Translations under genes and position numbers: made by a program
The notes under the pieces: generated by a model
What the model saw: only the letters and a program-made list of their open reading frames with translations
The model's database searches: none
Told to the model about the DNA's origin: nothing
From: Macrocystis pyrifera
Lineage: Eukaryota; Sar; Phaeophyceae; Laminariales; Laminariaceae
DNA length: 64,000 nt
Assembly (NCBI GenBank): GCA_031763025.1
Contig: JASSKH010000029.1
Location: forward strand, 806,001-870,000
Reading direction: 5' to 3'
Shown here: positions 26,303 through 60,904 of the stretch, piece after piece
Numbering within the stretch: the stretch's first letter is position 1
Layout of the letters: every line of letters begins with the position of its first letter

Positions 26303-26328
26303 ATATCTAGATATTCGCGGAACTTCTG

Positions 26329-29300: not shown

Positions 29301-30780
29301 AACCTTCGGTCAAGCTACCTTGGCCGATGATGGTTTGTTTCGTGTGCGTGTTGGGGTGCGTGACGTCTTGTGGATTCCGCCGGATGATCTTGCTCTTCAA
29401 ACTCGTTTGATGGTGTGCGCGCACATGCGCTCGGCTGGTCACCGTGGTGTGGCGCCGACTTTGTTTCGCCTGAAGGAATATTGTGTTTGGCCTCACATGG
29501 ATTCTCAGGTTCGCGAATTCGTTCGCCAGTGTTTGCACTGTGTAGACACGCGTGCAGGTGCACTCATTCCTCGTCCCTACGGAGACACGGTGCATGGTAC
29601 CGCTCCGGGAGAAGTGGTGCACTTTGATTTTTTGTATGTTGGCCACAGCGGGCCCGAAGGTAGCGATGGCCTGCCTGATGAGGATGGTTTCCGATATGTT
29701 TTGGTCATCATGGATGATTTGTCCAACTACGTGGCGTTGGAACCGGCCGAGGCTTGTACAGCCGAGGTCACAGCGAAGCATTTGCTAGCCTGGTGTAAGA
29801 CTTTGGGGGTGCCGCGTGTGTGGGTGAGTGATACCGCCACGCATTTCAAGAACAGGGTGCTTGCTTTGTTGAGCGACGCGTTGCACATCGAACATCGTTT
29901 GCTTGCTGTCGCTTACACGCCGTGGTCGAACGGTACGTGTGAACGCATGGTAAAAGAGGTGGTACGTGCTCTGCGTTCCATTCTGTCAGAACAGCGTCGT
30001 CAGGTTTCGGAGTGGGTTGATGTTTTGCCGGCCGCTCAGTGGGCCTTGAACACTTCGTTTCGTGAACGTTACCGAAGCACTCCGTACAGCGTGATGTTTG
30101 GGCGTGCTCCGCGTACCGATTTCTCGGCGCTCGTTTCTGAGTCTGATGGCAGGTGGAATGTGGACGTGATGAATGCTGACTTGTTGCGTGCGAACGTCCG
30201 TGAAGTCGTTGCAGAGCAGGAGAGATTTTGCGCCGATATTCGCGCAGCTGTTGCCGTGTCTCGCGACAACAAACGTAAACAGGCTCAGGGCCAGGTGGTG
30301 TTGCCAAAATTTGCGGTTGGTGATTTCGTGTTGTATGCTCGTGTTCGTCGGCAGGGTGTCACACCGAAATTGTTGTCCACATGGACTGGTCCGTGGCGTG
30401 TGGTAGCAGCTGATCATGATCATGTGTACTCAGTTCAGAACATCGTTTCTGGGAAGGTGCATCAAGCTCACGTGGCTCGTTTACGATTTTATGCGGATGC
30501 GACGTTGAACGTCACCGCTGATCTGAAGGATGTTTTCCAACATTCCTTTGCGCAGGGTGAATGCCGCATGAATGCTTTGGTGCATGTGGCCGAAGATGAT
30601 GCCAACGAGGTGATTGTCTTGGTCGATTGGGATGGTTTCGAAGCAGAGGAGCGCACGTGGGAGTCTTTGCGGTCGATTTATTCTGCTGCGCCTGAATTCG
30701 TCGTGAAGGAATTGCGCAAATTACGGATGACCCGTGCGCTCAAGATTAAAATTGCTTCAGAGTTCAGCATTGATTTGTGA
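26329..30780 (+). CDS. Ty3/gypsy Gag-Pol polyprotein with C-terminal chromodomain
   Basis: One frame of 1483 codons. A Gag-like region without any CCHC zinc knuckle fills residues 1-250. Aspartic protease follows, with active site LDSG at 268-271. Reverse transcriptase covers about 485-700: LDLLQGYWQMPL, then VDD at 645-647 in place of the more common Y/F-x-DD. RNase H covers about 800-940 (D810, E862, D886). The integrase zinc finger is H1032, H1038, C1068, C1071, and the integrase core has D1100, D1168 and E1205. A chromodomain-like end lies at about 1412-1462 (VLVDWDGFEAEERTWE). The frame opens just after a TAG at 26,308, and the first ATG is codon 120 (26,686). Translation therefore starts at a non-ATG codon, at 26,686, or after splicing. 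No frameshift separates gag and pol. All catalytic residues checked are present, so it may be active. Confidence 0.95.
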   Translation: MEEFSAAEYWVTAGKAVGPLDGSKRLEAHSRGGRSGSWRTHRSGGSFSVITVESRWTAVDYGAHGKHAAGGRGVSDSTEIRRGVDRAGLSCFFYAAYLDYEERLQLANAQGVVQHSKVSMGQLIPNYIHRCFEGFYKHQTTMTASELLDAVRQHAGYTTTSNRFDTSRAAADLRRVLSMRRDEKQGGETSVKDRAMMVNSAMEKYFAENHAVHAMYRAQDRSWLPGPAEFVSMALVDGLWPVDRSGECLRADLSLPGSVGSLMARVILDSGSALTSIGVGLLQQLSSHFGGADLQIPFENGPQQAKTATGVSVMVTHKTVPIAVSVRTPWGAVKLEPITFAVMPGTDNVVLFGMATMKALGIDVYREALEKLRPRAVPVSTGVETPSYLAARRVTVSVRAFQTEATVDAPEDKAVEHLVDRGPDMFMDPEEERTARERALEDSVQQAEQSGLSVGGATRLREILARRVGAFRRALCGDPPAQVEPMRVQLKQQAKPVKATPRRYEPTKRDWLSKCIAALVFFGFVYHNIQAVWASPAMAVPKKDSFRLVSDYSAVNAQVEKSPGVMPNHEDMGDLLGARFFGKLDLLQGYWQMPLAPEAQDVFTMATSDGLFTPTRVPQGVLNATSYFQGVMTEVLRGLDCKVWVDDVFFFADTEEALLQLLDDILERLENVGLFVAAHKCTFFSRELVWCGKVYSNGVVSHDPARVQGLSEMRRPENAGELMQFLQAVNWLRTSLPRLAETVAPLRDFLEELLVGATRRTKRVARNRVIKDTAWTEDRVRAWNAARGLVAQAVPLHHPRPGCVVLMFPDASDFHWGSFLTQVPEHEFRSGLALESMSHEPLGFLSGSFTGSQLRWATVDKEGFAIVNTFRRLEYLLWGGVHIFTDHRNLQYIFNPEKCVTTVTKTMAQRLENWKGVLGQYRYAIEHIPGDRNCWGDLLSRWVKVPTVPVRSVAVHSPCNADDSLPALDVIRASQQRSVARIGVGVHEFSTTFGQATLADDGLFRVRVGVRDVLWIPPDDLALQTRLMVCAHMRSAGHRGVAPTLFRLKEYCVWPHMDSQVREFVRQCLHCVDTRAGALIPRPYGDTVHGTAPGEVVHFDFLYVGHSGPEGSDGLPDEDGFRYVLVIMDDLSNYVALEPAEACTAEVTAKHLLAWCKTLGVPRVWVSDTATHFKNRVLALLSDALHIEHRLLAVAYTPWSNGTCERMVKEVVRALRSILSEQRRQVSEWVDVLPAAQWALNTSFRERYRSTPYSVMFGRAPRTDFSALVSESDGRWNVDVMNADLLRANVREVVAEQERFCADIRAAVAVSRDNKRKQAQGQVVLPKFAVGDFVLYARVRRQGVTPKLLSTWTGPWRVVAADHDHVYSVQNIVSGKVHQAHVARLRFYADATLNVTADLKDVFQHSFAQGECRMNALVHVAEDDANEVIVLVDWDGFEAEERTWESLRSIYSAAPEFVVKELRKLRMTRALKIKIASEFSIDL

Positions 30781-34364: not shown

Positions 34365-34840
34365 ACCCCTCCACCTGCACTTATTCGAGGAAATGGTTGA
34401 CACGCACCGTGTACGAGACGACTGGAACTAGCCCTCACCCTAAACCCGAACCCTGCGCCAATCAGAGCAACCCTCTTCCTGACATTAAGGCAGTCAGATC
34501 CTTACTTGAATGAGTGTTGAGCTCTACCGCCTCCAATTTGCTGTCCGAGAAATAAGTGGGCCCGGACGTTGCTACCCTTACAAAATAACACGCGTCTGCC
34601 AACCATCGCTTCCGGGTACCCCATATTTGACACCGTACAACACCCCAATTATCTGGGTTGCTTGGTATTGCTTGGTACTGCCGGTGCTGCATTTTCTTCC
34701 TCTTTCCTCTTTGATTCGTCCCTCCCCTTATTTCCCGAAGGAAGTAATGTTCGACCGGGAAACCTCATCCCCAAGAGAAGAACTTACGCCACGCACCGCG
34801 CCGCGCTGCGGCATCGTTTTCTCGGCCCTTTTTCAATCAG
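33889..34840. other. Upstream region of cysteine-module cluster 2
   Basis: No exon assigned. It contains the C38 tract at 34,327-34,364. The last 15 bases (TTTTTCAATCAG) look like a splice acceptor for the exon at 34,841. A first exon encoding a signal peptide would be expected here or further upstream, but none was recognised. Confidence 0.45.
34327..34364. repeat. Homopolymer of 38 C
   Basis: 38 consecutive C, then A and more C. It is 476 bp upstream of the first cysteine-module exon of cluster 2. Length from an assembly is unreliable at such tracts. Confidence 0.9.
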
Positions 34841-35372
34841 GCACTGGTCTGCAACTCCATCGGCTGCCCCAGCGGCTACATTCCGATCCCTGAAGCCGCA
34901 AGCACGCTGTGTGACGCCGACCCGTGCGAGGTGGACCAGTGCTGCAACCTGTTCTGCAACTCCATCGGCTGCCCCAGCGGCTTCATTCCGATCCCTGAAG
35001 CCTCAAACACGCTGTGTGACGCCGACCCGTGCGAGGTGGACCAGTGCTGCAACCTGTTCTGCAACTCCATCGGCTGCCCCAGCGGCTTCATTCCGATCCC
35101 TGAAGCCTCAACCACGCTGTGTGACGCCGACCCGTGCGAGGTGGACCAGTGCTGCAACCTGTTCTGCAACTCCATCGGCTGCCCCGGCGGCTACATTCCT
35201 ATCCCTGAAGCCTCAACCACGCTGTGTGACGCCGACCCGTGCGAGGTGTCCCAGTGCTGCGAAGCGTTCTGCTCGTTCCACCCGTGTCCCAGCGGTTCCA
35301 TCCCCATCGATGACGCTGGAACGACGATGTGCCCCGACACTGGGTGCACCGACGACCTCTGCTGCGACGGCG
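34841..35372 (+). CDS. Cysteine-module exon A, five modules (cluster 2)
   Basis: The frame reads ALVCNSIGC and then five consecutive copies of C-x4-C-x14-C-x4-C-x4-C-C, about 35 residues each. The first four are CNSIGC type and the last is CSFHPC type. It ends at donor GTGAGT (35,373) in phase 1. The CNSIGC modules are almost identical at DNA level with a 105-bp period, showing recent internal duplication. The acceptor is taken as TTTTTCAATCAG|GCA; that start is phase 0, unlike its neighbours. The frame stays open back to 34,748 without an ATG, so the 5' boundary is the weakest part. All thirty module cysteines are present. Product inferred secreted; family not recognised. Confidence 0.72.
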
Positions 35373-35746
35373 GTGAGTCACCCTGTCTCTTAAACAAATT
35401 AGCCGTGTTGTTAATTCGTATCATCACGGCGACGTGCTGCGACGTATGCGAGTCTCACCGCTATAGGCTGTCCCATCGAATGAAATCATGGTACTCATGC
35501 CCAGCAGGGTCGGATTATAGTATTCTACTGGCTCGCCCGACCCGTTTTGGCGGGGTAATATGTTGTCGCAACTACGTTGTCCGGGAAAGTATGGATCGTT
35601 TTAGGTACTCTCGTCAATACTCACACGGTTCTCAATATTTAAGGCAAAGTTGTCACCGACCCAGTTGGTCCGTGATCATGATGAAATTACACAGGTGCCT
35701 ACGACTCGAAGCGCCCCTTCCTATTCTGTATTTTCGCTTCGTGCAG

Positions 35747-36001
35747 CGAGTAACGGCAACGGCGGCGGCGACAGCGTCGACGGAACTCTTCGCTGCAGCT
35801 CCATCGGCTGCCCCGCCGGCTACATTCCGATCGATGACGCCGAAAATACTGTGTGTGATGCCGACCCATGCGAGGTATCCCAGTGCTGCGAAGCGTTCTG
35901 CTCGTTCCATCCGTGTCCCGACGGCTTCACCCCCATCGATGACGCTGACATGACTGAATGCCCCGACTCCGGGTGCACCGACGAGCTCTGCTGCGATGAA
36001 C
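35747..36001 (+). CDS. Cysteine-module exon B, two modules (cluster 2)
   Basis: A 255-nt exon between acceptor CTTCGTGCAG (ends 35,746) and donor GTGAGT (36,002), phase 1 at both ends. It encodes a Gly/Asp/Ser linker (SNGNGGGDSVDGT) and two intact C-x4-C-x14-C-x4-C-x4-C-C modules joined by CCEAFC. The upstream intron (374 bp) and the downstream intron (376 bp) share 'tattttcgcttcgtgcag' at their 3' ends. Exon and intron were therefore duplicated together, as in cluster 1. Confidence 0.75.
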
Positions 36002-36377: not shown

Positions 36378-36730
36378 CGAGTGTCGACAGCGGCGACAGC
36401 GGCGACGGAACGCTGCTTTGCAACTCCATCGGCTGCCCCAGCGGCTTCATTCCGATCCCTGAAGCCTCAACCACGCTGTGTGACGCCGACCCGTGCGAGG
36501 TGGACCAGTGCTGCAACCTGTTCTGCAACTCCATCGGCTGCCCCGGCGGCTACATTCCTATCCCTGAAGCCTCAACCACGCTGTGTGACGCCGACCCGTG
36601 CGAGGTGTCCCAGTGCTGCGAAGCGTTCTGCTCGTTCCACCCGTGCCCTAGCGGTTTCATCCCCATCGATAATGCTGGAACGACGATGTGCCCCGACACT
36701 GGGTGCACCGATGACCTCTGCTGCGTTTGA
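36378..36730 (+). CDS. Cysteine-module exon C, three modules, ends in stop
   Basis: Acceptor CTTCGTGCAG (ends 36,377), phase-1 start. Linker SVDSGDSGDGT, then two CNSIGC-type modules and one CSFHPC-type, all cysteines intact. After DDLCCV the frame meets TGA at 36,728-36,730. A donor-like CG|GTGAGA follows at 36,733. Compared with exon A, one extra base lies between TGCTGCG and the donor; without it the exon would splice in phase 1. So this is either the genuine last exon, ended by a one-base insertion, or a mutated internal exon. No further module was seen downstream. Confidence 0.7.
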
Positions 36731-43997: not shown

Positions 43998-44720
43998 GTG
44001 TGCGCTTTCCTTCTCGGACACCCCTCCAGACCGGCGCATATGAGCGACGGTGCCCAGCGGGTATTACGATCATGGACCGCTGCAGCGCCTGCGCCTTCCA
44101 CCTCCGCTCCTCGCCGTCGGCTCGATGTTGCAGCTCCTCTCCTTCCCTTAGTGCTGCCCTCAGACGGTGGTAAGAAGAGCGGCGGTCCTGACCTTCGTCC
44201 AGACGTTCTTCAGCATTCCTCTTCCATCCATCGCCGTCGGCCCGATGTTGCAGCGCCCTTCCTTTCCGCGGTGTTACCCTTGGACGGTGGTAAGAAGAAC
44301 GGCGGTCCTGACCTTAGTCCAGATGTTCTTCAGCTTTCCTCCTCCATCCATCGCCGTCGGCCCGATGTTGTAGCGCCCTTCCTTTCCGCGTTGTTGCCCT
44401 TGGACGGTGGTAAGAAGAACGGCGGTCCTGACCTTCGTCCAGATATTCTTCATCCTTCCTCCCCCGTCTATCGCCGTCGGCCCAATGTTGCAGCGCCTCT
44501 TGTTCCCGTGGTGCTGACCTTGGACGGTGCTGAGAAGAGCGGCGGACGTGACCCTCGTACAGTCTTCACTTGCAACTGCCTGCGCCACATCTGTCTAACA
44601 CGCTCGGAGCATGTACTCATCTGTGAAAAAACATGTTTTCTTCCTGGCTTACCTGCATCTGAGGTGGGGGTTCCTCTCGAAGGCCTACGTCTGCACTTTG
44701 ACAATAACCTACACGTTTAA
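43998..44720 (+). repeat. 120-bp in-frame tandem repeat within a 240-codon frame
   Basis: 'gacggtggtaagaag' recurs at 44,164, 44,284 and 44,404, and as 'gacggtgctgagaag' at 44,524, an exact 120-bp period; a diverged unit precedes at about 44,044. Because 120 = 3 x 40, one frame stays open through all units. It encodes a 40-residue repeat with GGKKxGGPDL and IHRRRPDV motifs. The frame has no ATG at its nominal start. Each unit also contains GGTAAGA and CTTCAG, which could act as splice sites. Either a repeat protein or a minisatellite that is open by chance; I cannot decide. Confidence 0.6.
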
Positions 44721-45045: not shown

Positions 45046-45583
45046 CCCCCAGCACGGACACTGTCCACTCGTGCAACATGTTCGTGCTAAAATAAATCAC
45101 GCGTCTTAAAACGGCATTCGTCCAGACCTACTTCCAAATCGTACCCCTCGTATAACACTTTTTGTGGAAGTAGTTGCAGCAAGGTAGAGACAAACACCCC
45201 CCCAGAACAGAAACTGCCTACCACCTACTCGCATTCCAATCACACCTGTCGATTCGTTCCTTCAACCCTCGACCACTATGCTTGGAGCGACAAATAGTAT
45301 CCTGTTAGGTTGCACGCTGTCACTACTGTTATTGTGCCATCGTTGCGATCAAAGATAGTCACGTGGAGAGCAGCAGTATGATCCCAACATGTTTCTCGGT
45401 ATTAGGTGCCATGCAATTTAGTGTCTCTTCAAGCATTCCTGTCTCATCAGGCGGATCATCCGCTACTCAGATACGGACAAATAAAACAGGGATGCGTGGT
45501 ACGCTCAACACCTACACGTTCGCGTTCGCAAACTCGGGCGCCGTTAGCGTTTTGTTTTTGGCATTCAGGGAACCTCTCGTTTG
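45046..45583. other. No gene supported
   Basis: Nothing recognisable before the long direct repeat at 45,584. Confidence 0.5.
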
Positions 45584-46019
45584 TGTGATATGAGTAGAGC
45601 ACTCATGGGCTATAGATATAGATAATACGTTGCAGTCTTGTAGTCTCACGAATACGTTTCCAAAGAATGGGTTAACCCGGCGGATATTCCGTTAGTTGAG
45701 AGTAACGTTCTCTTAGGAATGTTCCCTAGGGCAGAAAACCCCTTAGACGAGAGTAATGTTCCTTAGCGCAGATAGGACCACGAAGTGAGATATTCTTATA
45801 TTAGCAGAAGAACGATTGGTAGCCATAGGAAAGTTATGTAGGCGTACATCAGATAAGAGGAATTTAGGAGAGCTTGTGGCGTGGGGTGGGACGAGTATAT
45901 CTGGGCGTCGAGTCCCGCCCCCCTACCTCTCACTTCTGTACCAGAGCACCTCCTCAGCTCTCGCCATCAATAAGAAGATCTAAATCAGAAGAAGCGAAGC
46001 ACTGCTTTTCCAGCTGCCG
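45584..46019 (+). repeat. Long direct repeat, left copy (putative 5' LTR)
   Basis: About 435 bp starting TGTGATATGAG and ending CCAGCTGCC. It matches 58,536-58,969 with about four differences. It contains an internal half-repeat ('gagagtaacgttc' and 'gagagtaatgttc'). It begins TG as LTRs do, but no CA end and no target duplication were found. LTR identity is inferred from the retroelement genes lying between the copies. Confidence 0.75.
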
Positions 46020-47234
46020 TCACCGCATCACATCTGACGTCGTCGCATTCAACGAATGTTCTGGCCAAGCTTGGGACTGCAGCGCTTCTTTTAGATCTCC
46101 TCACGATCATGTGAGCCATCCCTATCCGGGAGGCATCTGGTTTTGAAGTCAACTTTTTATTTATTTGTTTTTGTTTATGTTCCCTGTTTCTCGTTTCTTT
46201 CGTTCTTCTTGCTCTCTCTTTTCTTTCGTTTTTTTTTTTCTTCTTTTTCTTTTACGAACATGCGTTACTGAGTGCGTTTATAGTGTAGAGCGTGACAAGC
46301 TGCCTAGTGGCATAAGTAGGCGCTTCTCCCCTCCCAGTATAGGAGAGTTGACGCTTCTCCCCTCCTAGTAGGCACCGTCAAATCGCATGTGCAAGTACGT
46401 ACAACAAGCTGTGTTGTTCTTTCTTAGTAAGTACTTGATATATAAGTACTGGTCCTTATTAGCAATATGATGATCGAGGTTTGTTTTTCCGCTTACTATA
46501 CCCCGTCTCCGCCGTGGAATGACAGGTCGATGACCTCCACGATACGTGATTCCACGTGGTTGAATGCACCTGTAGACCCCCCAAATGACCTCGTGCTCAT
46601 CGCACAAACCAAGCAGCGTTTTCCTTTGTACCCCTCCGCCTCGATATGCCCGCCCTTTCACAGGGAATGCACGTAGTAAGTACTACTGTAGGTGGAACTA
46701 TTGGCACATTCTTGCCCGCAGATATTTTGTCTGCATCTTCCGGTTTATACCCGTGTTGTATGGGATTTGACCCTAACACGACTACAAAGAAGCTGTTGTC
46801 GTACTGATAGGACACACACAGCAGTACCGACACCTTATTCTTTGATACGTGATATGTATGCCGGTGGTGTGACTTACTACGCCATCGTTAGTATACGCAT
46901 CTGTGAGCAGCGTACAAACGGCTCTACCATCATTGCGAATTGTATCCGCTTGTATCCATCCCATGGAATATTCGCCCGCGAGTTCTTGAGAGGCCATTAT
47001 TATTATTATTTTTATTTTTTTTCCTGATACGAGCAATGGTATACGTTTAGACTGACCTTACTTGCGACCCCCTGATAGCGAGAAGAGCCATATATATTGT
47101 TTTATTATTTTTTTTCATGTCGTTTTTTTTTTTTCATGCCCTTTGGTTAGTGGATTTCAAACCACATACTGGCCTGCAGAGACTGGTATACGAGCGAGGT
47201 ACAAATAGTTAATAGTGGTACGATGGTACGTAGT
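46020..47234. other. No gene; leader of putative element
   Basis: T-rich stretches near 46,150-46,260. The first 25 bases partly resemble sequence about 70 bp downstream of the right repeat copy ('ccgcatcacat'). Confidence 0.4.
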
Positions 47235-47331
47235 ACGCGTCCCCGGTGGCTTGGTAGGTGGTCCGCGAGCCTATCAAGATCAATTTCGTGAGTTCGAGTC
47301 TCACCGAGTGCATGCTCATAGGGACTTTTTC
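47235..47331 (+). ncRNA. tRNA-like sequence with Pol III boxes A and B
   Basis: Box A-like TGGCTTGGTAGG (47,247-47,258) and box B GTTCGAGTC (47,292-47,300) are spaced as in tRNA genes. Box B sits in a perfect 5-bp T-arm (GTGAG/CTCAC, 47,288-47,304). A T5 run at 47,326-47,330 could terminate Pol III. No 5-bp anticodon stem forms and the acceptor ends do not pair well, so it is not a normal tRNA. Best read as the head of a tRNA-derived SINE or a tRNA pseudogene. Confidence 0.4.
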
Positions 47332-47450
47332 TTGCATAAAATTGATTTTAGCGGAAAGCGCGAGAGCGTGAGTTAGCTGTACATTCGATGAAAATCGACG
47401 AGCAGTGGGAATGCTGAATGCTGAACCCTATGCGCGATAAAAACTAAAGG
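47332..47450. other. Possible body of the tRNA-like element
   Basis: Immediately follows the tRNA-like head and precedes repeat E. No second copy was found in the window to test whether it is a SINE body. Confidence 0.25.
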
Positions 47451-47570
47451 CACGTACCGGGGGGGAGAAGGGACGACACCTGTGACCACGGCTTGTCCAG
47501 AAGATCGTCGAGGGTAAAACCTCCTACGAGTGGGCTGGAAAGTAAAAGTGATGAAAAAAAAAAAGAAAAA
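47451..47570 (-). repeat. Dispersed repeat E, copy 2 (inverted)
   Basis: Reverse complement of 17,080-17,204: 'agggacgacacctgtg', 'gggtaaaacctcctacgag', 'ctggaaagtaaaagtgatga' and an A-run. The minus-strand frame reads VGGFTLDDLLDKPWSQVSS, similar to that in copy 1. Confidence 0.65.
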
Positions 47571-49467
47571 AGTACTGCTATTACGAATATAGTACCAAAA
47601 TTTCCCGTGAACCCCCTCCCCTCGTTCTCTGTCATATATTTAGGTAGCCAAACGATACACAATTGGGTCGGTCCCCCCGTCTCGATGTGATGGAGTCGCA
47701 CATCCATCGTATAGGAACGCATATACTCGCAGACGAATCTTATATGGTTGCACGTAGCTCTTTAGGGATATATCTGTAGGCGAATCTCACGTGGTTATAC
47801 GTAGCTCGTGTGGGACCAGCGTACATATCTGCACCCCTCTTCAGATTGGCCCATCGTTACGCTGCTTCTATCCTACGAGGTACAGAACAAGCGGCATGAT
47901 GCACCTCCTGCGGAGCCTTTACTATATAAACAGGGCGCATGTTGCCGAAATTGACCAGATTTCTGCTACCTTTTTTGCCCAACCCCCACAGCCTATAGGA
48001 TACAAACAACGGTCATTATTTTCATTTTTTTTGTTTTATTTTTATTTTTTTTTGCTGCTGCTCTTTACGTGCACGTTTTCCAGCGTTGACGACATAATAA
48101 GATGGCTTTATGTTGCTGAACCTTGGCCCACGGCTGCCTGTGTATGCCTAAATTTCCCAGTTTGACGCCAGAAATAAGGTATATGCCGCACAAATAAGTC
48201 CGGCTACAGCTCCCCACGTGCACGATCTTCCGCGTTTACGACACAACAAGGCTTCATGGCGCCCACAACCTTGTCTGACTACTGCTGTTTACGTCTACCC
48301 CCCCCAGCTGTACTACATTAACAGAATGTACGACACCTGATCTGGTCCGAATATTCTGTTTGGTCGTGTTTGTTTTCCCTCCCTTTCCCGTTTCGCTTTC
48401 GACTTTTGTTTTTTTTGTTTTTTGTGTGTTTTTTCCCGACTTTTAAGCCAAAGCAGGGTAGACACTGTTCGAGTTTGTAACAAGTGTTATTTTCCAGCGT
48501 ATCCCATCCCCACCCGGTTTTACAAATATGCAGGGTACACGCTGCCTAGAACTGTAACACTACAAAGGCTACACAAACGAGTAACATATCATCTGTTTAT
48601 CCCTTGTTTGTCCAGCTTCTCACAAAAACAGCAGCTGCCTGCTGCTCATATATGGAACATAATAACTGTGGCCCGGGCAGTGACCAGTTCCAAAGAGATG
48701 AACTAAATGCTGGCCAAATTAAACAAAATAATATACAATTTTTCGCGGCGGATTAGAGTATTGGACCTCCCCACAGGAGCCGAATGATACCCTTTTCCAC
48801 ATTTTTACGTACCGGGGTCTATTTATTTATTGTTTGTTTTCCACTTGTGTTACCTCTACGATACCCTACGTATCTCACATCGTGTCGGACCTCGCGACGC
48901 CCCGAAATGCACCGGTTGCTGTCTGTTTTGCCACGGAACGACAAGCTGCCTACCGTTTAGGGAATCGCCCGATATTCTGTGCAGCTACTAAATAGTGCCG
49001 GCATGCTGCATTTTTTTTTTTTTTTTCCCCGACTCGACCTTCACATTTTCTTTACGGGTACTCTTATTTGTATCCCAACGAAAGGTCTTGCACTGCCCAC
49101 GCTCAGTAAGCGTCACGCCCTGTTATCATTACGAACGTTGGGCATTTCAGACGGAGTTATGTTCAATTCTGTTCAACTGATATCACTTGAGTGACCCCGG
49201 CGCGACTACCGTCAATCAAACGCGAGGCGCCTGGCGCTAGTTAGATGCCCTCAACTATAAAAATATCCTTCGACGGGCACTAAAATCGTGGCACGCACAA
49301 CCTCAACACCCCCTATCGTACGTCCTTACCGTCACTCCTTTCTCTCTCCTAGATCGGTTTGTTGGTATTGTAGCCGCCTACCCTGATCCAAGCCTGGATC
49401 CACCCGCCCTCTCCATCTTCCACCAAACCTTTTCCCGCCCCAGTACAAGGGTTCCACCCGCCTAAAC
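47571..49467. other. No gene; sequence before Gag frame
   Basis: Several T-rich tracts near 48,000-48,060, 48,405-48,435 and 49,011-49,026. 'ttggtattgtagcc' at about 49,360 weakly resembles the initiator-methionine-type primer binding site of gypsy elements, and lies 100 bp before the Gag frame. No LTR-like partner of the sequence before it was found near the 3' end of the polyprotein. Confidence 0.35.
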
Positions 49468-51298
49468 ATGGCCGAGAAAGCTTCCTCCACCAACATTCCC
49501 GGCGCCCACTCCCCCGACGCCACCAACCCCCGCGAGGCGAGGTATGCCGCAAGGGTCTTTCGCGCTACCGACGACGATACCCCTGGCTTCGAAACCATTC
49601 TGAGCGACTTCACGCTACACCCCACCACACCGGGATCTTCTCCAATGGGAGCAGGCACGACCAGTGCCGGGCCTACCATCAACCCGGAGGTCACTGCACA
49701 GGAAACCTCCACCCTGGCTCTCAATCCGGGGCGTTACCAAGGCGATCCCACGGCCCTCCGTGAGCGCCGTGCGGCCCTCAAAGCCCACCACGAGCAGCTC
49801 CTCCGTCTCGCGAAAGAGGGCGCTGACCTCCTACTCGTGTTACCGCCGTCCCCCATCCCTTCCTTGAACCCTTTCGACTCCACCTATGGGACTACAGCTG
49901 CGACCGCGGCCACCACGGCCCAATCGCAGCCGTTCGCTCCTCACCATGGGCACCCTATACGTCCCCCGCGATGTCTAGGATCACCACCTCCCAGCCTCCC
50001 AAAAACCAAACTGGGACCATAATGTCCCAGGCACCACTACCGGCCCAACCCTTGCCAGCCCCCATACCCACTGGGCACCGGCACCCGCAGACGTTCGGCT
50101 TTGAGCCCAATGACTGGGTCTTCCTCGACGCTAAGCTCCGCTGGATGCAGAGTACACGCGACGCGACGGCCTCGGATGTCTCGCTAGAGGTTCACCGTGT
50201 ATGGCGGCTCTTCACACCCGACTGTAACCCGTCGATCACTTTCGTTCTGGCCCGCGCCGCCACCGAGGGTGTTTCTTCCGAGTTCATCGGGGCCGCCCAT
50301 ACCCGTTTACTCGAGCCACGGTATTTTCACTCGAACGCCGGCCGCGGCTACGTGTGGAACCGAACCGTCTCGACTCGCTCCCCCGACACCCTCAACCACC
50401 CGCCCCACGACGGACATGCCATCGCCGGCGACACCGTCCCTTCCCACCTCGACAGCGCCCCCTCCGACGACAGCGCCCTGCTCCTCACGAGCGCGTAGCC
50501 TGATGACGAGAGCCAACACGGAGCCCACGACGGAGGCGGAACGTCGTGGTGTCCCACGCCCAAGCCCTACGAGCTCACGGTGGACATTGCCTCAACCGCA
50601 ATGGTACGGACCACAGTATGAAGACCTGCCCCGAGGGCTTCCTCAACACGTCCGGCATCCTGAACCCGGCACTCGGACAGTTGAACGATGGTGGACACGC
50701 TTACCGCCAATGGCAACGAAGGATGCTCTCCTACCGCCGTGGACAATACGAGCGCAACCTGGAGCGAAACTCCAACCGCTACGACAACAACAACCGTCGA
50801 GGCATCAACAACAACAACCGCAGCGGAAACTACAACAGCAACCGCTCCAACCAGAACCACTCCTGCAACTACCGCGGCAACAACGGGCGCTCCGACAACT
50901 GGCGCCACAACAACGGCCGGTCATACGACAACGGCAACCGACAGTCGCCAGGGCAACAGTTACATCGACAACGCACCGAGCCTGCCCCCTCGTCTTCAGC
51001 ATTGACGGTGCATAGCCCCGCGACCAATACTTCCGCACCTGCCGCCCCCGCGATCATGCGGATGGGCAGCACCAACTCGAAGTACCCACCCGAACCAACG
51101 GCAGCCGGGCACCTTCCGCACCAACGGACAAGCCGATGGTGGAGCAACTGTCGCATCTCCACCAACAGCATCTACTGCGAGCACCCGAGGCTCCCAGGAC
51201 GCACGAGTAAATCACGTGCACCACGTCTACCCGACCCCTGCCCTCCAATGCCCCCCCCCTACGCCAGCCCATTTCACAGCCACTTGTTCAAGCACTGA
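49468..51298 (+). pseudogene. Gag region with mutated zinc knuckle
   Basis: Three successive frames (49,468-50,022; 49,971-50,498; 50,546-51,298) together make a Gag-like protein. The first is Ala/Pro-rich with a helical RERRAALKAHHEQLLRLAKE segment. The second has a structured part (FGFEPNDWVFLDAKLRWMQ). The third has a nucleocapsid-like segment CLNRNGTDHSMKTC, which is C-x2-C-x4-H-x4-C with the second Cys changed to Arg (CGC for TGC). An Asn/Arg-rich stretch near 50,780-50,880 follows. Frameshifts between the three parts show decay. In Ty3/gypsy elements Gag forms the particle and the knuckle binds RNA; this copy could not do that unaided. Confidence 0.65.
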
Positions 51299-51557
51299 TC
51301 ATCTTGCCCAAGTGATTGCCTTGAGGTGTGGGCGGGAGGAGGCCAAGACGCCGAGCCCCACCGGGATGCTCCACTCGACGTCTTCTGGCGGTGAGCAACG
51401 CTGCTTGCCGACTATTGCCGAGACCCCAGATATTGCTACCCTGGGAAACGTCTCGACGATTACGGCTACCAGCGGTTCCGGTTGACACGAAACTACTGTT
51501 TCGTCTACCGGGCCACCGCCCCCTGAGCCTGCCTCATATTGGCCGCTCCATACGCGC

Positions 51558-53258
51558 ATGTTCCAGCATGCGCGTATTTCTTGTGACAGCGTTGAACCCG
51601 CGAACGACGGGCTTCCTCCAGCTGCCACGGTGTTGACACCAACGCTGTCCCTGAGCTCGAGGGACAGTCCCGTTATAAATACGGAAGACTCGCGACCAAC
51701 GTCGACCAGGGTCTGCCCTGAGCCCCCTGACCCGTCCTCCTCGCCTGCTTCGCGCAAAGCGTGGACACGGACCCCAGGTGTGGCATCCCCTAGCGAGTAT
51801 GCCCCTGTTCTCCAAAAGTTGGACGATAGGGCGCTTGAGGGTCGTCCCGCCCGGCTTATAAGCCCCGGCGAGGACCGCCCCGGTACCTCGGCTTTGCCGA
51901 GCAATTCCCCCGCGAACACGAGGGTTCCGGCCAGCACCGCTCGATCGTTGCTGACTCTACCTCCGTCGACGCCAGGCGGCGATAGGAAAGATTATCGTCG
52001 CCCCCCACCCCCAACACAAAAGACGCCATCAACTGCACACGTCACCGCAGAGGCCGCCTCATCTTTCCACTTCTTCTGGGACTCCTCTTCGGTCTTTTCG
52101 CAGTGGTACCTGTGCGACATCGAACACGATGGCGTCACATACAACTGTGCTGGGCAGACGATGATGGCGCAGAAAGCCGCGCTCTTCGGGGACATCACAA
52201 CTGAGCGCCGCATCAAAGCGACCCGCGACCCGGCCCGCCAAACAGCACTTGGGCGAACCGTTTCCGACTTCGACGAAATGGTCTGGGAGCGACACCGCTA
52301 CACCATCGTCCTCTACATTAACTTCTCCAAGTTCCGGCAACACCCGGAGCTACGGGAGGAGCTAATAGCAACCGGCGACAAGCACATCGCCGAGGCCAGC
52401 CCACACGACCTCATCTGGGGCATAGGCTTCAAGGCCGACCATCCGGACGCCTGTGACCCGACGCGTTGGCGTGGTCGGAATCTGCTGGGCAGGATACTGA
52501 TGGACGTTCGAGAAAGCCTCGGCGCCAATTGCTCCGCCCAGCCTCCATTTCCTCCCCATCTTCACGACCCGGAGCCAACACCCGCCCCCACCGACTCCAC
52601 TCGGGTCTCCCCCACAGACGACGGCATCCACGAAACAAGCCCGACCCCTCCATGGCAACCGCCTACCTCTCCACTTGGGCCACTCCTACCGCCGTCTACC
52701 CCCGACGCCTACCCGAGCAGCCACTTTGCCCAAGGGTCCACCATCAACACCGCAGCCCACAGCCACCTCCCTACCCGCCGCCCGCCGATACCGGAACACG
52801 GACCATGCGGCATCATTACCGTCGACGACGCGTCGTTCACGACGAAAGTACTCGTGCACAGCGGCCCCACCGCCACTACGCGCCGCGAACTCGTGGCACT
52901 GCTCGATACCGGCTCGCCCCAGTCGTTTATCACCGCAACCGCGGTGGAACAACTGAAGGCTTCCCAGGCAGCCACCGATGCGTGCGAACGGCACAGTTCC
53001 CCCCGTTCATGGGGAGGTTTCGGCACCTCAGCCCCCCTCTCCATCTCCGTCTCCATCCGCTTAAGCATCCAGTCTATGCGCCTCCAGTCCCCCACCGCTG
53101 CCCTGGCAGTATGGGCCTGCGTAGTTCCTGCAGGAACCATGCAGCACCCCATCCTTCTGGGACGAGACAGCTGGATGCGGTTCGAGCAACGCTCGTATAC
53201 CACGCTCCAGCAACAGCCCACCCCCCCCCTACCAACCTCCCCGGCGAACCCGCGGTGA
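51558..53258 (+). pseudogene. Polyprotein segment: NADAR domain plus aspartic protease
   Basis: ATG-initiated frame of 566 codons. Residues 1-168 are Pro/Ser-rich. Residues 170-322 match the NADAR (YbiA-like, old DUF1768) pattern in order: FHFFWDSSSVFSQWY, DGVTYNCAGQTMMAQKA, FGD, DPARQTALGR, FDEMVWERHRYTIV, NFSKFRQHPEL, IATGDKHIAEASPHDLIWGIG, NLLGRILMDVRE. The family's conserved glutamate after the Cys-Ala pair is Gly here (GGG for GAG). Residues 445-545 are a retropepsin: active site LLDTGS at 448-453 and late motif ILLGRDSWMRF. Known NADAR proteins cleave N-glycosidic bonds, including ADP-ribose on guanine bases (DarT-NADAR systems) and intermediates handled by YbiA. Their presence in a Gag-Pol chain is unusual. 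Stops on both sides separate it from the neighbouring frames. Confidence 0.85.
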
Positions 53259-54073
53259 GCTCTCCTTGAACCACCATGACCCTAACGGAGCCTCAGCATT
53301 CATTCCCGACGATCGTTCCACTGACGACGTCTACCCCCTCCGATTCCCCGGCAACAAAGCTATTTCGCTTTCCTCCACCCCCAAGCTCGTCAAGGTCAAC
53401 CTGGCGCGTCAGTCAGGCGCTCCAGCATTTACCGGGAACTACATGGTGAACATGCTCCCCCGCGAGAACCCCCTGTCCGACCCGGCCATTTTCGTCTCCG
53501 ACGAATACCAAACGGTCCCACTATCTGGATCTACCGATCTCGAGCCGGGCGACCTCCTCGGAACCTCCTGCTCCCCACTGGTACAGGTACCACTTTCCAC
53601 CCTTGGACACCCTTCCTTGGCCCCTCCCCATCCCCCTCCGATTCCGGATGTACATGCCCTCCACGACAACATCCCCGTGGCCGACCAGAGCCCATCGACA
53701 GACGACTCTCCTACCGCACCAAAAGCCCCGTGCCCACAACTTCTTGCACGCCTCAACGCCGACCAACGGGAAAGCTTCCTCGACCTCTGGGAACGTCTGC
53801 CGTTACACCTACGCGACGTCAACTTCGACCTTCACGGTTCTAGATGAACCCCGTCGGTGATCAACAACCTGGGAGACGTCCTCTGCGAATTCCAGGACGT
53901 CTTCTCCACCACCAAGACTGACTTCGGCTCGTGCCCGCTCATGCCGTTCAAGATCACCGTACCCCCGGACAGCCCAACGGCTCGAGCTCCTTTCAGCGTA
54001 CACCTACACGCTGGAGTACCGGAAGGGCACGGCCAAAAGCAACGCCGACTTCCTCTCCCGGCTTCCCCAACCA
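53259..54073 (+). pseudogene. Protease-RT linker with RT/RNase H deletion scar
   Basis: A frame at 53,266-53,847 (shifted relative to the protease) runs to a TGA (53,845-53,847) and continues in the same frame: VINNLGDVLCEFQDVFS, then TKTDFGSCPLMPFKITVP. This is the segment that opens the reverse transcriptase of gypsy elements. At about 53,985-54,003 it passes straight into YTLEYRKGTAKSNADFLSR, in another frame, which is the closing segment of RNase H. The palm with its catalytic aspartates, the thumb and most of RNase H, normally around 1.2-1.4 kb, are absent. The joint is direct, with no foreign sequence between. Confidence 0.8.
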
Positions 54074-54765
54074 GCCACCGACGCCGACCGCACCGGACGT
54101 AACCGCCACACTGGCCCCGACACCGTCGGCATCTACCTCATCCGCCCCTGCGGCTTCGCGCCGAACGACCCTTCCACCCCGGGTATCGGCTTGGGTGGGC
54201 TCGTGTCCCCCCCTTCCGGACCCATCCCAACCGTCCAGCCGCTCCCCTTCACCGACGACGACTTCCGCGACTTTCGCCTACTCGGACCACGTATGGAGCA
54301 CCCCACCCTTTCCCCCGCAACCCACACCTTCCTCGGGCCTATTGCGACCCGCGACTCCACCACCGGACAGCTTGCCGGCACCGAGAATGCCGCCGTGAAC
54401 ACCGGAGCTCCTCCAGGCTCGGCTTCCATGCCGTCCGTCGTCTCTCCGCCGCCCACCATTGGCGCCACGACACCAGCCCTTCCAGGTCTGATATCTTCTC
54501 GGACCCGCCATCGCGTCGCCGCTGCCGCGGGAACCCCTCGGCCTACAGCCGACTACCGGTTTGGACGCTGACCGCCACCCAAGCCATTGGCGCCCATTAC
54601 GCAAAGATCGACCCCCTCAACAACGCCCTCTCCGCCGGCACCAACACCACCGGTAGTGCCCCTTCTTGAGCCCGTCGTCGAACCCGATGACGACCCCTAC
54701 CTCCTCGCCTAGGTCGAGCACTACACCTACAAAGACTGGGCGCGAGAAAAACGCGCGGAGCCCCT
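54074..54765 (+). pseudogene. Spacer between RNase H and integrase, low complexity
   Basis: A Pro/Thr-rich open frame continues from the RNase H tail to about 54,571 (motifs FTDDDFRDFRLLGPRM). It then breaks. No domain recognised. It corresponds to the tether before integrase. Confidence 0.5.
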
Positions 54766-56460
54766 GTGCTGCGCCACCATCCGCTTCCTGTCGTTGGACT
54801 CCCCCAGCCCCACGCCGCACGACCTCCTGGACTTCATCCCCCCGGCCCGGCGCCCACATCTTTCGGACGTCCTCACTCTTGCCTCCAAAAGCAAGCTACA
54901 CCGTACCGACGACGAAACCGCCCTGCTGGTCCAACGACCACCCACAACCTCATCCGGGAACAGCCTACCACCACCCGCCCCCTCTACCCCACGCGTCTAC
55001 GTGCCAATGTTAATGCGCCCTTGGGTGCTGAACACATGCCACGCCACCACCTCTCTACACCTGGGAGTCACCCGAACGGTCCGCATGTTGGCACGTTTCT
55101 TTTGGTGGATTGGCATGGACGCTTCCGTCCGCTGGTGGATCCGCCGTTGCCTTCAATGCCAGGCGCGGAAGACCTCCCGGCACACCATTCGTTGGCCCAT
55201 CCTTTCTCTTCCTTTGCCCAACTGGCCTGGCATCACCGTCAGCGTCGACTACTCGGGCCCCTGCCGCTCACGCCGCGCGGGAACGTCCACATCCTCCTTT
55301 TCACAGACCGCTTCAGCCGCCGCGCCGATATGTATGCCGTTTCAGCGGCGCAGTTCACGGCCGCCGGCACTGCCGACATCTTCCTGAACGAGTACATCCC
55401 TCTCTGGGAGTGCCCGATTACACTTCTCTCCGACAACGGATTACACTTCACCTCCAAGCTTGCGAACATCGTCTACGAACGCCTTGACGTCCACAAGGTC
55501 AACACCAGCTCCTACCACCCCTGCACCAACGGCGGCGTCGAGCGCGTCAACCACGTGCTGGCCCAAATGCTCTCTATGGTTGGCAACGAACAGCAGACCG
55601 ACTGGGACGTGCTGCTCCCACACGTGTCGTCGGCCTACAACAATTCCGTGAACGCCGCCACAGGGCTTGCACCTAACGAAATCCACATGGGCCGCCTTCC
55701 TCGCCTCCCGCTCTCGGTCTTCGAACCCGACAGCATCGGCGGTCACCAAAGCTTGGACCGCGATCACCTGGTTTACATCAACCTCGCCACCGACCGACAA
55801 CGACGCGTCTATTCCCTCGTCCGCGAACTACACCGACTCACCGTCTCGCGTCTACAGCGCCGCAACGCGCCCATCATGGCCGCCCTCCTAGCATCCCCCC
55901 CCTTCACCGTAGGCGGCTGGGTTTGGGTCTACAACTCCGCCTCAACCATCCGCCAAGGCGTCAAAAAGGGCACCGACGCAACCGTCCTCAAGACGAAGCT
56001 TTCCCTGAACTGGAATGGCCCCTTCAAGGTCCTCGCCGTAGGGCCGACGCCCGCCTCAAACACCCCCGACAATCGCCCCCTTCACGACAAGCTACTTTTC
56101 CTCGACCTTCCATCCGACCTCCCGGGACGGGACTCCAAGCCACGCGTCTCCGTCCAACGATGCAAACCTTGCCGGAACCCCGACGACACCAGCGACATCC
56201 CCAAGCATCTGCCCGCGGACCTTACTACATACGTGCTCACAGCTTCTGCCGCCAAGTCCCCCCCTTACCACGTCACCGTCGACGACGTCACTCCTCCACC
56301 GGAACGCCTCGAGGTCGAGCAGATCACTGGCCATCAACTCGTACGCGGCCGCGGCGGGGTCATCGCCGTTCTGTACGAGACTCACTGGACTGGACTTCTC
56401 AGCCCCTCTTGGGAACGCGAGCTGGACCTTCAACACTTCCGGCGCCACATCCTACTGTAG
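54766..56460 (+). pseudogene. Integrase with chromodomain-like end, frameshifted
   Basis: The HHCC zinc finger is read in the 54,794-55,387 frame (CHATTSLHLG ... RRCLQCQ, about 55,035-55,165), with the first catalytic aspartate in VDYSGP near 55,245. Near 55,270 the reading moves to the other frame: LLFTDRFSRR, the second aspartate in LLSDNGLHFTS near 55,430, and the glutamate in GGVERVNH near 55,535. An integrase C-terminal GPFKVL segment follows (56,017), then a chromodomain-like end (ITGHQLVRGRGG, LYETHWTGL, SWERELDL) up to the stop at 56,460. All three DDE residues survive, but the frameshift separates D1 from D2 and E. Integrase inserts element DNA; chromodomains in such elements steer it to marked chromatin. 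Confidence 0.82.
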
Positions 56461-56900
56461 TGGTCACGATCACCAACCCAGCACCGCCAGACGAACCGCC
56501 TCTACCGTCAGATGCGCCCCGGCGCCGCTCACCGCGAACTGGCCCGATCTCAAGGACAAATCTTCCTCGCCCCAGGCTACGCCTTGGTCTCCCGCAGCCT
56601 TTGGCTCCACAACTTCAGCACCAGCATCCTACCCTCCGGAGCACACATATGGTACAAGGCGCGCGACGGCCTTTGGTGGCTGGGCAAGGTCGCTCACAGC
56701 TAACCCCCTGACGCCTCTTCGGGAACTCCGCCGGAGCCTTCACCGGGAAGCTCCTACATCGTCCGGTTCCTGGACGACCCCGGCCCGATCAAGATCGACC
56801 TCCACCCCGCCCGCTACACTACAGCACGGAACGCCGTATACGGATCGTGGTGTCTTCAACGCCATGAGAATGGGAGCCTAGCACGTGGGGTGCCGCGGAA
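56461..56900 (+). pseudogene. C-terminal extension with Tudor-like motif, stop-interrupted
   Basis: A frame from 56,512 reads GAHIWYKARDGLWWLGKV, meets TAA at 56,701, and continues in the same frame with SSYIVRFLDDPGPIKIDL and ARYTTARNAVYGSWCLQ to about 56,870. The W-x-KARDGLWW-LGKV ... YIVRFLDDPG pattern resembles a Tudor/Agenet-type SH3 barrel. It would be a second chromatin-reader domain after the chromodomain. The assignment is by motif only. Confidence 0.5.
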
Positions 56901-58535
56901 CTCTGATGTGTCCCGCGGAACCCCCACCGTTTCCACTCCCCCCCCTGGTTAGCCTTAGTTTAGTATTTCGGTAGTTCTGGGTATTTGGTTCTGGTTAGTC
57001 TGCAATATCTTAAGAGTAGTTCTTCAGGGCTAGTCTTCAATAGTCATCAGCAGTCATCTTCTTGGGAGTGTTTGTTTCCATCTACCGCCACCGGTATCGC
57101 TTGACCGACCCCGTGTTGGCTACCGATCCGAGGCCGTGTATGTTTCCTTTTTGGGTGTGTTTGGGAGTATCATCGTCCCCCCCCCCCCCCCCCCCCCCTG
57201 TTTGTTTTTCTTCTTATCTCCTACGGCTCCGTGTAACCTCCTTACGTTCAGGCCACCGACTCGTAGCGATACCTTCATTTGCATTTGTGTTCGTACTCCA
57301 ATAGCCTACAGCCAATTATCGGCGATATCACGCCGAGGTAAAATCGTGTTGTAGCCTGAGCTGTGCTCTGACCGTAGTCGACTTCCGCCGACCCGTGTTT
57401 CAGACGGTCCTCGAGCTAAGCCTATATCGAGCTTCCAGCTCACCCGTGTTTCTTCCATGTTTGACAAGTAGGGTCCCGATAGCATTGCCGCCCCGGAAGG
57501 CCGCTGAGTTATCGGCCATACATAAGCGGTTCGGACATGATCGATTTCTCCTGACCTGTGTCCAGCTTTTTGTCTGTTTTCTGGTCCCGATGGTATTTCG
57601 TTTTCTCTTTCCCTTTTCTTCCTCATTTCTTCTTGTTCGGTATTCCGCACATCCCTCTGTCCTCTGGCAAACGACACCACGTTTGATGTCGCCCCGGTTG
57701 ACCGAGTTGCACACGCTAGGTTTTGGGCCCCGCGCATTCTACAACTTCGAACTGCACGCATTAGGCCGATTTTCTTGCGGATTTTCTTGCGATTTTCTTG
57801 CCGCCACCGTCTTTGAGTTTGTCTTTGTTGAGTTGGCTACCTTGCTACGTTTGCTGGTTTTGTTCACACCACGGACAGGTCTCCGAGACGCCGCGTTGTT
57901 TGTTGCGTCTCTCGGTTTTAGTAGTCCCTAGTACACGCAGCCCTCATAGCACTCTAGCTGTGTCCCTTCTGTCTCGCATGATGACTACCATGTTAGGACC
58001 TTCGCCACAAGACAAGGCATGGGGCCTAGCGGATATATATATATATATATATATGTTTTTGAATTGTGATCGCTGTCTCCTTTTTAGAGTTTCCTCGTTC
58101 GCCAACCCGGTTCAGCGAACAACCCTTTCGTACTTCCTTGGGCCCCAGACAATGGCTCCGGTGAAACGCTTGTACGTCCTTCTTTTGCCTTCATTTGGGT
58201 CTTCGTTTTCTTCTTCGGCCTTCGCTTCGGTTTCTGCCTCATTTTGCGTTCCTCTTTCTTTGTTTTCATTTTGGGTGATTTCTACTTTCGCCTCTGCTTT
58301 GAGTTCTGTGTCTCTCTCTCCTTTAGTCTCCCTTTCAGTGGTTGTTCTCAGCGAACACCCCCTCTTCGTAGTGTTTGGGTTTTATTACGAGGTGTGGGGG
58401 GATCTATAGCCTCATTTCGTTTGTTTCGAATAGCCGCATCTTCGACTACCTTTTTCCTGGCCGTTTGGGATGAACTTTGTCATCACCCTCCGACCATCTT
58501 GTGGTCTGCATATACGACTATTCAGGGTGGGCTAA
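56901..58535. other. No gene; trailer with C20 tract
   Basis: A C run of about 20 lies at 57,178-57,199. Pyrimidine-rich sequence lies near 57,595-57,640 and 58,190-58,340, with a TA microsatellite at about 58,032-58,053. No similarity was found between the start of this stretch and the region before the Gag frame. Confidence 0.45.
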
Positions 58536-58969
58536 TGTGATATGAGTAGAGCACTCATGGGCTATAGATATAGATAATACGTTGCAGTCTTGTAGTCTCA
58601 CGAATACGTTTCCAAAGAATGGGTTAACCCGGCGGATATTCCGTTAGTTGAGAGTAACGTTCTCTTAGGAATGTTCCCTAGGGCAGAAAACCCCTTAGAC
58701 GAGAGTAATGTTCCTTAGCGCAGATAGGACCACGAAGTGAGATATTCTTATATTAGCAGAAGAACGATTGGTAGCCATAGGAAAGTTCTGTAGGCGTACA
58801 TCAGATAAGAGGAAATTAGGAGAGCTTGTGGCGTGGGGTGGGACGAGTATATCTGGGCGTCGAGTCCCGCCCCCCTACCTCTCACTTCTCTACCAGAGCA
58901 CCTCCTCAGCTCTCGCCATCAATAAGAAGATCTAAATCAGAAGAAGCGAAGCACTGCTTTCCAGCTGCC
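58536..58969 (+). repeat. Long direct repeat, right copy (putative 3' LTR)
   Basis: About 434 bp, TGTGATATGAG to CCAGCTGCC. Differs from the left copy at only about four positions: a/c and t/a changes, g/c near the end, and one T fewer in a T run. Flanked by GCTAA on the left and AGAAC on the right; neither matches the flanks of the left copy. Confidence 0.75.
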
Positions 58970-60904
58970 AGAACAACCTGCGTCCCTTGCCACTACCCTT
59001 ACCACTACCCTAGAGCGGGCTCCGCATCACATTTGGGCATTGGGCATGTGGCCTTTAGAACTGCCCTTCCATTGCGCGGACGAAACACTTGGAATTAGGG
59101 TCAAACTTCGGTACATGTACAGCAACAGTAGTGCAGTACTCAGAAGACTAAGATGCCCAGTCGACATTGGGAACGGTGTCAGATACTTAAAACAGCGCGA
59201 AAATCGATTGACTGTCTGTTCACCGCGCTAGTGAGAAAGGCGGTCAATGAGTATACGTGTCCTGGGAATGGTTTTTACTATCGGAGAAGGCCAGGTTTTC
59301 CCTGCTCAGTTTGGTTTGAATAGTGCATCTCGAATCCACCGCGTAGGATGCATGCATCAGTTCTGGGAGAGCAGTCGCAATTCCTGCAGGCAAAGCACTC
59401 ATGATAGGAGCCGACGATCCGGGGTCCTTTCGGCACGATGTCCAAAGTTCTTGCCCGCTCTTATGCTCTACGAGTATGCTGGGTGTACATGTAATAGCAT
59501 GGACACGTTCATGGTGTTATTCATTTGCAATTGATGCGGGATGTACATACCATATCGGACAGGTCGTTAATACCGTTTCTCTCACCTACCGGTTCGGCAC
59601 TGTTTCGTACTTGTTAGTTTTCTCCAGTCGCGACGCATTTTAGTTTTTACAGCCTGTTTAGTGATCACGGGCGGGATTTCAGGACTTCGAGCTATTGTTA
59701 TAGTGTCAGAACATGCGTACTACAATACCTGGTAGTATGTATTTGACCACCCCACACTCTCGGAGCTTAAAGCGTTTACCTGCTGGCCAGATTCGTTCTC
59801 GGACAACCCAATCTTCAGATGATACTTACGCAAGGTGTGGACCTAACCACAGGCAGTGTATTCTTCAAACCAAACCGATCTTGAAACCCCTCTACGCCCA
59901 CCGACCATGCCGTGTTTCTTCGTACGCGCTTGCTGATTTTTCACACCAGGTACCTTATATTTTTTTTCGTACGTAGTTATGTATGTACGATACAGATATA
60001 TCATTGATTTCCATCCCATTTGTTATCTTCGCCCTTTTTTCTCTTATCCCTCCTACGTTTAGACATCCGGTGTCACACAGCAAGCTCTTTATTCCTCTTA
60101 CCGATGTGGTCTGTGCCTTGGGTTTTATTGCGGAAATACTTCAGTTCTTCGTTGCGCCTACACTCGTTAGGCGATCTCAGCAGTTGATTCCACACCTTTT
60201 TGTTGTGTATATTGTGTGAATCCCCGCCTCATCCATCTTGAGATTCGAGCTCCATGGTTCAACGCTAAAAACAGAAGCGATACTCTAGACCACGCGGGGC
60301 TTTAGATGAAAAGAATAGGCCAACCATATCAAAACCAACGAAACTCTTTCAGGGCACGACCCAGATCGGGTATGTATACGTATATAGAAGGTCGAACCCT
60401 AATAATTACCATGGTATAATCTTTGTGTTTCTGTGCGGACATTAGTAACGTAATCTACAGCAGATAATAATGCTTCAATCGAATTTTTGGCCATGAACGG
60501 AGAAGTACAACATTAATAGTACCTTAAGAAGGTCATGCACAGCAGTAATTATCTCATTGCTCACATCCTCGCCGTAGTGGACAGAATTATACGGGGTATC
60601 TGCCAAGAGTAAACTGAGGCTGTGTGATACCGCTCGGTATGCTGAAGATACTGCTGTATATTATAGAATATGAATGAAGGCAACATACTTCGCAGTCAGC
60701 ATGAATAATGTGCGATCGTACGGATGTAAAAACCTTTTTATAATATTACGCAGCTTGCAAAGTTGAGTATCAACTATTTAATCAGTCGAACTCACAGCTG
60801 ACGTATTTCAAAATTTATAAAATACTACTGGATGTAGAATGTATGGAGACCCCACGGATATGAGTCGTAGGGGTACGTACTTCCCTTATGTGTGTTCTAT
60901 ATAC
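58970..60904. other. No gene supported
   Basis: Nothing recognisable in any frame; A/T-rich towards the end. Confidence 0.45.

Follow-up and report, generated by a model that had tools for sequence, protein, structure and literature searches.

Enzymes of the NADAR superfamily are reported to strip ADP-ribose from guanosine in DNA (PMC11543638) and from guanine in RNA (PMC11833690), and their genes are described from many eukaryotes (PMC11125620). What is such a domain doing inside a retrotransposon polyprotein of Macrocystis pyrifera, and is it an accident of one copy or a regular part of a mobile lineage? We studied a window, i.e., the whole stretch of 64,000 nucleotides analysed here (contig JASSKH010000029.1, positions 806,001 to 870,000 of the forward strand); all positions given below are those of the window. 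A preliminary description of this DNA had placed a NADAR domain at 52065..52523, between a zinc-knuckle Gag and the retropepsin of a Ty3/gypsy-like chain, and had proposed a Pfam search as a check.

That search bore the description out, with coordinates off by a few bases. The domain lies in a 566-aa open frame of the positive strand (51558..53258) encoding NADAR and a protease, and the Pfam NADAR profile (PF08719) matched ORF residues 172-321, i.e., 52071..52520, over profile positions 1-162 of 163. The E value of 4e-47 rules out a chance match, and the score, 160.9 bits where the cut-off is 35.1, places the domain in the superfamily by profile. An AlphaFold2 model of the domain, built from 36 aligned sequences, had a mean pLDDT of 95.5, and a Foldseek search of the PDB with this model returned two matches only at E <= 0.001: 8BAU, the P. 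nicotianae NADAR (E 5.3e-10, TMq 0.84, 30% identity), and 2B3W, E. coli YbiA (E 1.0e-7, TMq 0.81, 27% identity). The mark of the YbiA subfamily, a last-strand Glu equivalent to 8BAU E125, was present in the window copy and in 40/40 other copies (see below). Judged by profile match and structure model, the domain between the Gag-like region and the retropepsin-like domain is a NADAR with a predicted YbiA fold.

The domain is carried by an LTR retrotransposon that spans 45584-59031 and is flanked by a 4-bp target duplication. Its 5' LTR (45584..46032, +) and 3' LTR (58536..59031, +) both have the form TGTGAT...ATCACA; the repeats were recognized by local alignment of one LTR with the other, and their ends were set by comparison with other copies. 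These ends place the target-site duplication TTTG at 45580..45583 on the left and at 59032..59035 on the right (both +). Aligned with the 3' LTR, the 5' LTR shows a gap of some 48 bp in its interior, and 430 of 434 aligned columns of the pair were identical, the gap falling outside the compared stretch. A first local alignment had shown no target duplication, and the idea that the repeats were not LTRs of the NADAR element was dropped once the true LTR ends, the 5' LTR gap and the duplications had been established. In the search for LTRs, five further loci (C45, C128, C202, C204 and C219) presented pairs of this LTR whose starts are separated by just some 0.6-2.5 kb; they are possibly short derivatives or nested LTRs.

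Inside the LTRs, a broken Gag-like region (49387..51482, +) runs through several stop-to-stop frames, in which no Pfam match reached its cut-off. The zinc knuckle of the preliminary description is there, found by motif scan at 50588..50629 (+), as a remnant with the second Cys changed to Arg, so that the claim of a zinc-knuckle Gag holds in part. The same pattern scan of 16 other stretches gave three matches, all C-X2-C-X4-H-X4-C, and none in the remaining 13. Downstream of NADAR there is a retropepsin-like domain (52842..53240, +) with a sub-threshold Pfam E value of 0.016 and the motif DTGS at 52905-52916, followed by the integrase zinc-binding domain PF17921 (55001..55177, +; E 6.6e-17) and the integrase core PF00665 (55270..55521, +; E 7e-4, below cut-off at 20.3 bits against 32.6), these two matches sitting in different frames. 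A putative chromodomain at the integrase C-terminus (56311..56439, +), sought because such a domain marks the Ectocarpus NADAR-Gypsy lineage discussed below, matched PF00385 with an E value of 0.0071 and 16.7 bits, against a cut-off of 25.1; its single-sequence fold model had a pLDDT of 38, and a PDB search gave no match. Rfam and tRNA scans across the window gave no match. None of the element's frames put through the Pfam scan matched a reverse transcriptase (RT), so that, of the proposed Ty3/gypsy-like chain, the sub-threshold retropepsin and the integrase were found and the RT proved to be absent through a clean deletion. The Ty3/Gypsy order of Pol, i.e., PR, then RT/RH, then IN, was seen by position in the RT-bearing relatives; RT/RH is deleted in the window copy.

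A search of the 537-Mb genome (223 contigs) for NADAR gave at least 150 matches above cut-off among the best 150 of 1264 first-look candidates. From all along the ranking of these 150 matches we chose 40 copies manually, some of them for their long open frames, which made 41 with the window copy; as the sample comes from the best-scoring 150 of the 1264 candidates, the conservation reported here is inflated. The 41 copies fell into 23 of type A, the window copy included, and 18 of type B, the NADARs of the two types being 50% identical (median). A protease was found downstream of NADAR in 40 of the 41 copies, window included, and an integrase in 36 of the 41 within the stretch read; RT was found in 8/23 copies of type A and 17/18 of type B. 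The one copy without a protease match, L047 (type B), had weak matches to RT (27%) and integrase (22%). A stop codon within NADAR occurred in two of the 41 copies (L037 and L038). In two others, the type-B copy L027 with 1696 aa and the type-A copy L034 with 1231 aa, a natural open frame spans NADAR, RT and RNase H. The multi-copy family thus includes natural open frames from NADAR through RT to RNase H, the window copy itself being devoid of RT.

The protease was also used as a query, with 150 of 1482 candidates scored. Among the first 40 of the 150 protease matches listed, 28 had a NADAR 770-782 bp upstream when compared with 50 of the 150 listed NADAR matches. A further class, type C, with a protease about 65% identical to that of the window, carried NADAR in 3/3 loci checked, so that NADAR lies upstream of PR in three subfamilies (A, B and C). 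Three other protease loci, 78-81% identical to the window protease, comprised one with NADAR and two without a full NADAR: within the 651 bp read upstream, L069 (protease 78%) had no NADAR and L070 (81%) had a C-terminal remnant only, which means that individual copies can be without the domain. These two loci, with open frames of 865 aa and 1036 aa at the protease, are possible natural NADAR-loss derivatives. Insertion of a copied host gene at this locus, with relatives lacking the domain, was the case named beforehand as fatal to the retroelement assignment, and it fails against at least 150 matches, although L069 and L070 are without detectable NADAR. The assignment of NADAR to the retroelement is upheld by its many copies, by the protease downstream in nearly all of them and by the natural open frames. 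Very probably, the window element is a member of a Ty3/Gypsy-type lineage whose Pol includes a YbiA-type NADAR as standard, placed after Gag and before the protease.

The window copy has lost its RT, together with the greater part of RNase H, but has kept the NADAR, protease and integrase regions. The deletion junction was located at 53979..53980 (+), with about 1,175 bp absent relative to four RT-bearing copies and a 2-bp overlap. The same junction word, allowing up to three edits, was present in 15/23 type-A copies, window included, and the remaining 8 carry RT. That separate insertions have this one junction in common suggests a deletion that occurred once, after which the deleted form was copied repeatedly; judging from these sequences, the RT-less family was presumably copied in trans after a single deletion event. 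Each of the three RT-less insertions checked had its own target duplication, TTTG (window), ACGG and GTGC, and, in the same order, LTR pairs identical in 430/434, 433/433 and 432/433 columns (99-100%). Near-identical LTR pairs together with separate target duplications in all three point to young insertions and recent spread, young being meant in a relative sense. Compared with the window LTR over 440 columns, the 3' LTRs of two RT-bearing copies agreed at 84.5%; of the differing columns 23-24 were mismatches and the others gaps. This divergence suggests an LTR version peculiar to the RT-less family. The window copy is a member of a multi-copy, recently mobile RT-less derivative family.

The active site was numbered as in 8BAU, with residues taken from PMC11543638 and mapped by alignment (in which, by our counting, the chain count runs two ahead). 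The window NADAR keeps the equivalents of K50, R79, W89, R93, E125, D130 and W133, and has Gly in place of E43, i.e., Gly/Lys where the conserved pair is E43/K50. In the other copies the pair is Glu in 39/40 (22/22 of type A and 17/18 of type B) and Lys in 39/40; the seven further ligand positions were unchanged in all 40, apart from one K to M at the K50 position. Gly at the Glu43 position was also seen in one type-B copy and in the protein P0040. The E88A change in the E. coli C7 NADAR, equivalent to a change of E43, is reported to have a minor effect in vitro, and E88 substitutions to fail in cell rescue (PMC11543638). By analogy with this minor effect in vitro and lost rescue in cells, the NADAR of the window copy has probably lost part of its activity and not all of it. 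With RT and most of RNase H gone and Gly at an active-site position, the window copy is a poor candidate for a working enzyme.

Between types A and B, the NADAR dN/dS was 0.16 (JC correction) at a pS of 0.735, where synonymous sites are near saturation; within types it was 0.71 (A) and 0.59 (B). Among type-A copies, which have diverged little, the NADAR pN/pS came to 0.60 (0.34-1.15) for the 15 copies without RT, compared with 1.08 (0.48-3.59) for the 8 that have it, and clear purifying selection on NADAR among young copies, looked for by pN/pS, was not seen. For the type-A integrase the values were 0.98 (0.60-1.81) in 15 RT-less copies versus 0.20 (0.08-0.45) in 7 RT-bearing ones, a contrast that, with these small numbers, perhaps fits relaxed constraint after RT loss.

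Relatives of the domain were sought among proteins. There were 41 protein matches, and in a BLASTP comparison (E <= 1e-6, low-complexity filter off) against a database of these and the window protein, eight proved to share the retroelement linker on one or the other side of NADAR; the remaining ones are mostly short and NADAR-only, judged by length and Pfam. A search for relatives among long proteins gave 96 candidates and no relative, and an IMG/VR search gave five pattern matches, none of them a relative. One match, P0003, is a 353-aa protein that combines PF01467, which we take to be a nucleotidyltransferase-type family, with NADAR, perhaps a link of NADAR to NAD-type metabolism. The last residues of P0005, LLYTSPSPRD, look to us like a translated sequencing adapter, which makes its C-terminus untrustworthy.

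Six of the 41 protein matches (P0003, P0027, P0030, P0031, P0035 and P0042) were left out of the alignment (A1). A 36-row tree grouped the window sequence, P0002, P0004-P0006, P0013 and P0038-P0040 in one clade (98/99) with P0032 outside; in a later tree that included type C, P0032 grouped with type C (100/99). Types A, B and C were each a single clade, and the free trees did not join A and B. The p-AU was 0.081 for a forced A+B and 0.078 for A+B+P0032, with P0002 left out. A forced A+B+C lay 2.31 lnL above the free tree with a p-AU of 0.56, after two type-C rows had been added and P0002 and P0038-P0040 left out. The trees are compatible with a single NADAR capture, the simpler reading, and also with separate captures by types A and B. 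The RTs of the two types are 74% identical, and either is 23-25% identical to the RT in a second Gypsy-like ORF that the window contains.

This second Gypsy-like element, at 26311-30777 (+), is a 1489-aa open frame that matched RT, RNase H and integrase profiles and gave no NADAR match. Elsewhere in the window, a fragment at 13631-14119 (-) matched RVT_1 below cut-off (E 5.6e-5). Tandem repeats of 105 bp at 34844-35272 and 36419-36631 (+) encode Cys-rich units (CNSIGCPSGYIPIPEA...), and the frame 34748-35950 had no Pfam match. A 120-bp tandem repeat of about four copies lies at 44096-44562, inside a 244-aa open frame without a Pfam match.

As to what the domain does, the position of NADAR between Gag and protease means that it would be synthesised along with Gag-Pol and might be taken into particles. 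There it may hydrolyse ADP-ribose on guanine, or a related N-glycoside, in the element RNA or cDNA, and so would either counter a host ADP-ribosyltransferase or clear ADP-ribosylated bases before reverse transcription and integration. A particle-borne NADAR clearing ADP-ribose from element RNA or cDNA, against a host writer or as cleanup before copying, is by analogy with the known enzymes our tentative proposal, possible but short of probable. Its more specific form is rather unlikely in our estimate: a packaged NADAR would remove ADP-ribose that an ADP-ribosyltransferase of the brown-algal host adds to guanines of the element RNA or cDNA, and would hence be kept by three subfamilies, and the RT-less family would parasitise the autonomous one yet supply NADAR, protease and integrase, in a division of labour. 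On the main reading, the RT-less copies would be copied in trans by RT-bearing relatives, with RT supplied in shared particles. If the proposed role is true, ADP-ribosylation of nucleic acid would be a eukaryotic defence against retrotransposons and NADAR the antidote borne by its target. With its numerous copies, its three subfamilies, its forms with and without RT and the occasional copy that has no NADAR, the lineage is a test set supplied by nature.

Other readings share part of this evidence. NADAR might act on small molecules, such as NAD-derived signals or N-ribosides (cf. YbiA in riboflavin metabolism), and not on element nucleic acid; the YbiA-type Glu of the last strand in 41/41 copies, window included, is consistent with this, and viral NADARs have been proposed to prefer soluble ADP-ribose derivatives or by-products of RNA processing (PMC9503650), but the domain would sit in the polyprotein of RNA-bearing particles, and the same source also puts forward macromolecular targets for NADARs in RNA-virus polyproteins, so that we consider the small-molecule reading doubtful. 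We regard with the same reserve a processing of the RNA intermediate of transposition unrelated to defence, a role suggested, with no particular substrate, for the domains of the Ectocarpus Gypsy and the oyster Tx1 LINE ORF1 (PMC12477816). That NADAR persists as a folded module for binding or spacing, with catalysis dispensable, appears very unlikely: Gly at the Glu43 position in the window copy, one type-B copy and P0040 would fit it, but Glu occupies this position in all other copies but that one, and E88 substitutions in the E. coli C7 NADAR are reported to have abolished cell rescue (PMC11543638). To the idea that a NADAR gene or pseudogene of the host landed by chance in a single retroelement copy we give virtually no credence; NADAR genes do occur in many eukaryotes (PMC11125620), but the multi-copy, fixed-position data refute such an insertion, with at least 150 matches, a distance to the protease that hardly varies, Pol frames that are naturally open and three subfamilies.

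The fusion of NADAR with a Gypsy element is already published for Ectocarpus, and the RT-less multi-copy derivative is the addition made here. According to PMC12477816, NADAR occurs in families of one Gypsy lineage (Gypsy-12_Ec32), its matches outside Ectocarpus being almost exclusively bacterial; the available part of that source makes no mention of an RT-less form of the NADAR element. Among the papers listed for NADAR or YbiA with retrotransposons, judged by title or opening of the abstract, no other such fusion was found. By its description, the lineage of Ectocarpus sp. 7 resembles that of the window in being a NADAR-bearing Gypsy, and our results extend the observation to a second, larger genome (537 Mb versus 200 Mb), in which there are at least three subfamilies and the RT-less derivative. 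The Ectocarpus gag-only Copia families reported there are likewise multi-copy without a full enzyme set of their own, whereas the RT-less family retains its NADAR, protease and integrase regions. The Tx1 LINE of Crassostrea gigas also has NADAR inside a retrotransposon protein, but it is a non-LTR element with the domain in ORF1, and its NADAR matches are called divergent (PMC12477816). NADARs embedded in the replication polyproteins of RNA viruses (PMC9503650) are comparable in their setting and differ in belonging to positive-strand RNA viruses of animals, not to LTR elements. Finally, 8BAU and 2B3W have the fold and equivalents of ligand residues in common with the window NADAR, but they were solved as separate proteins, and the window NADAR is without the E43 equivalent.
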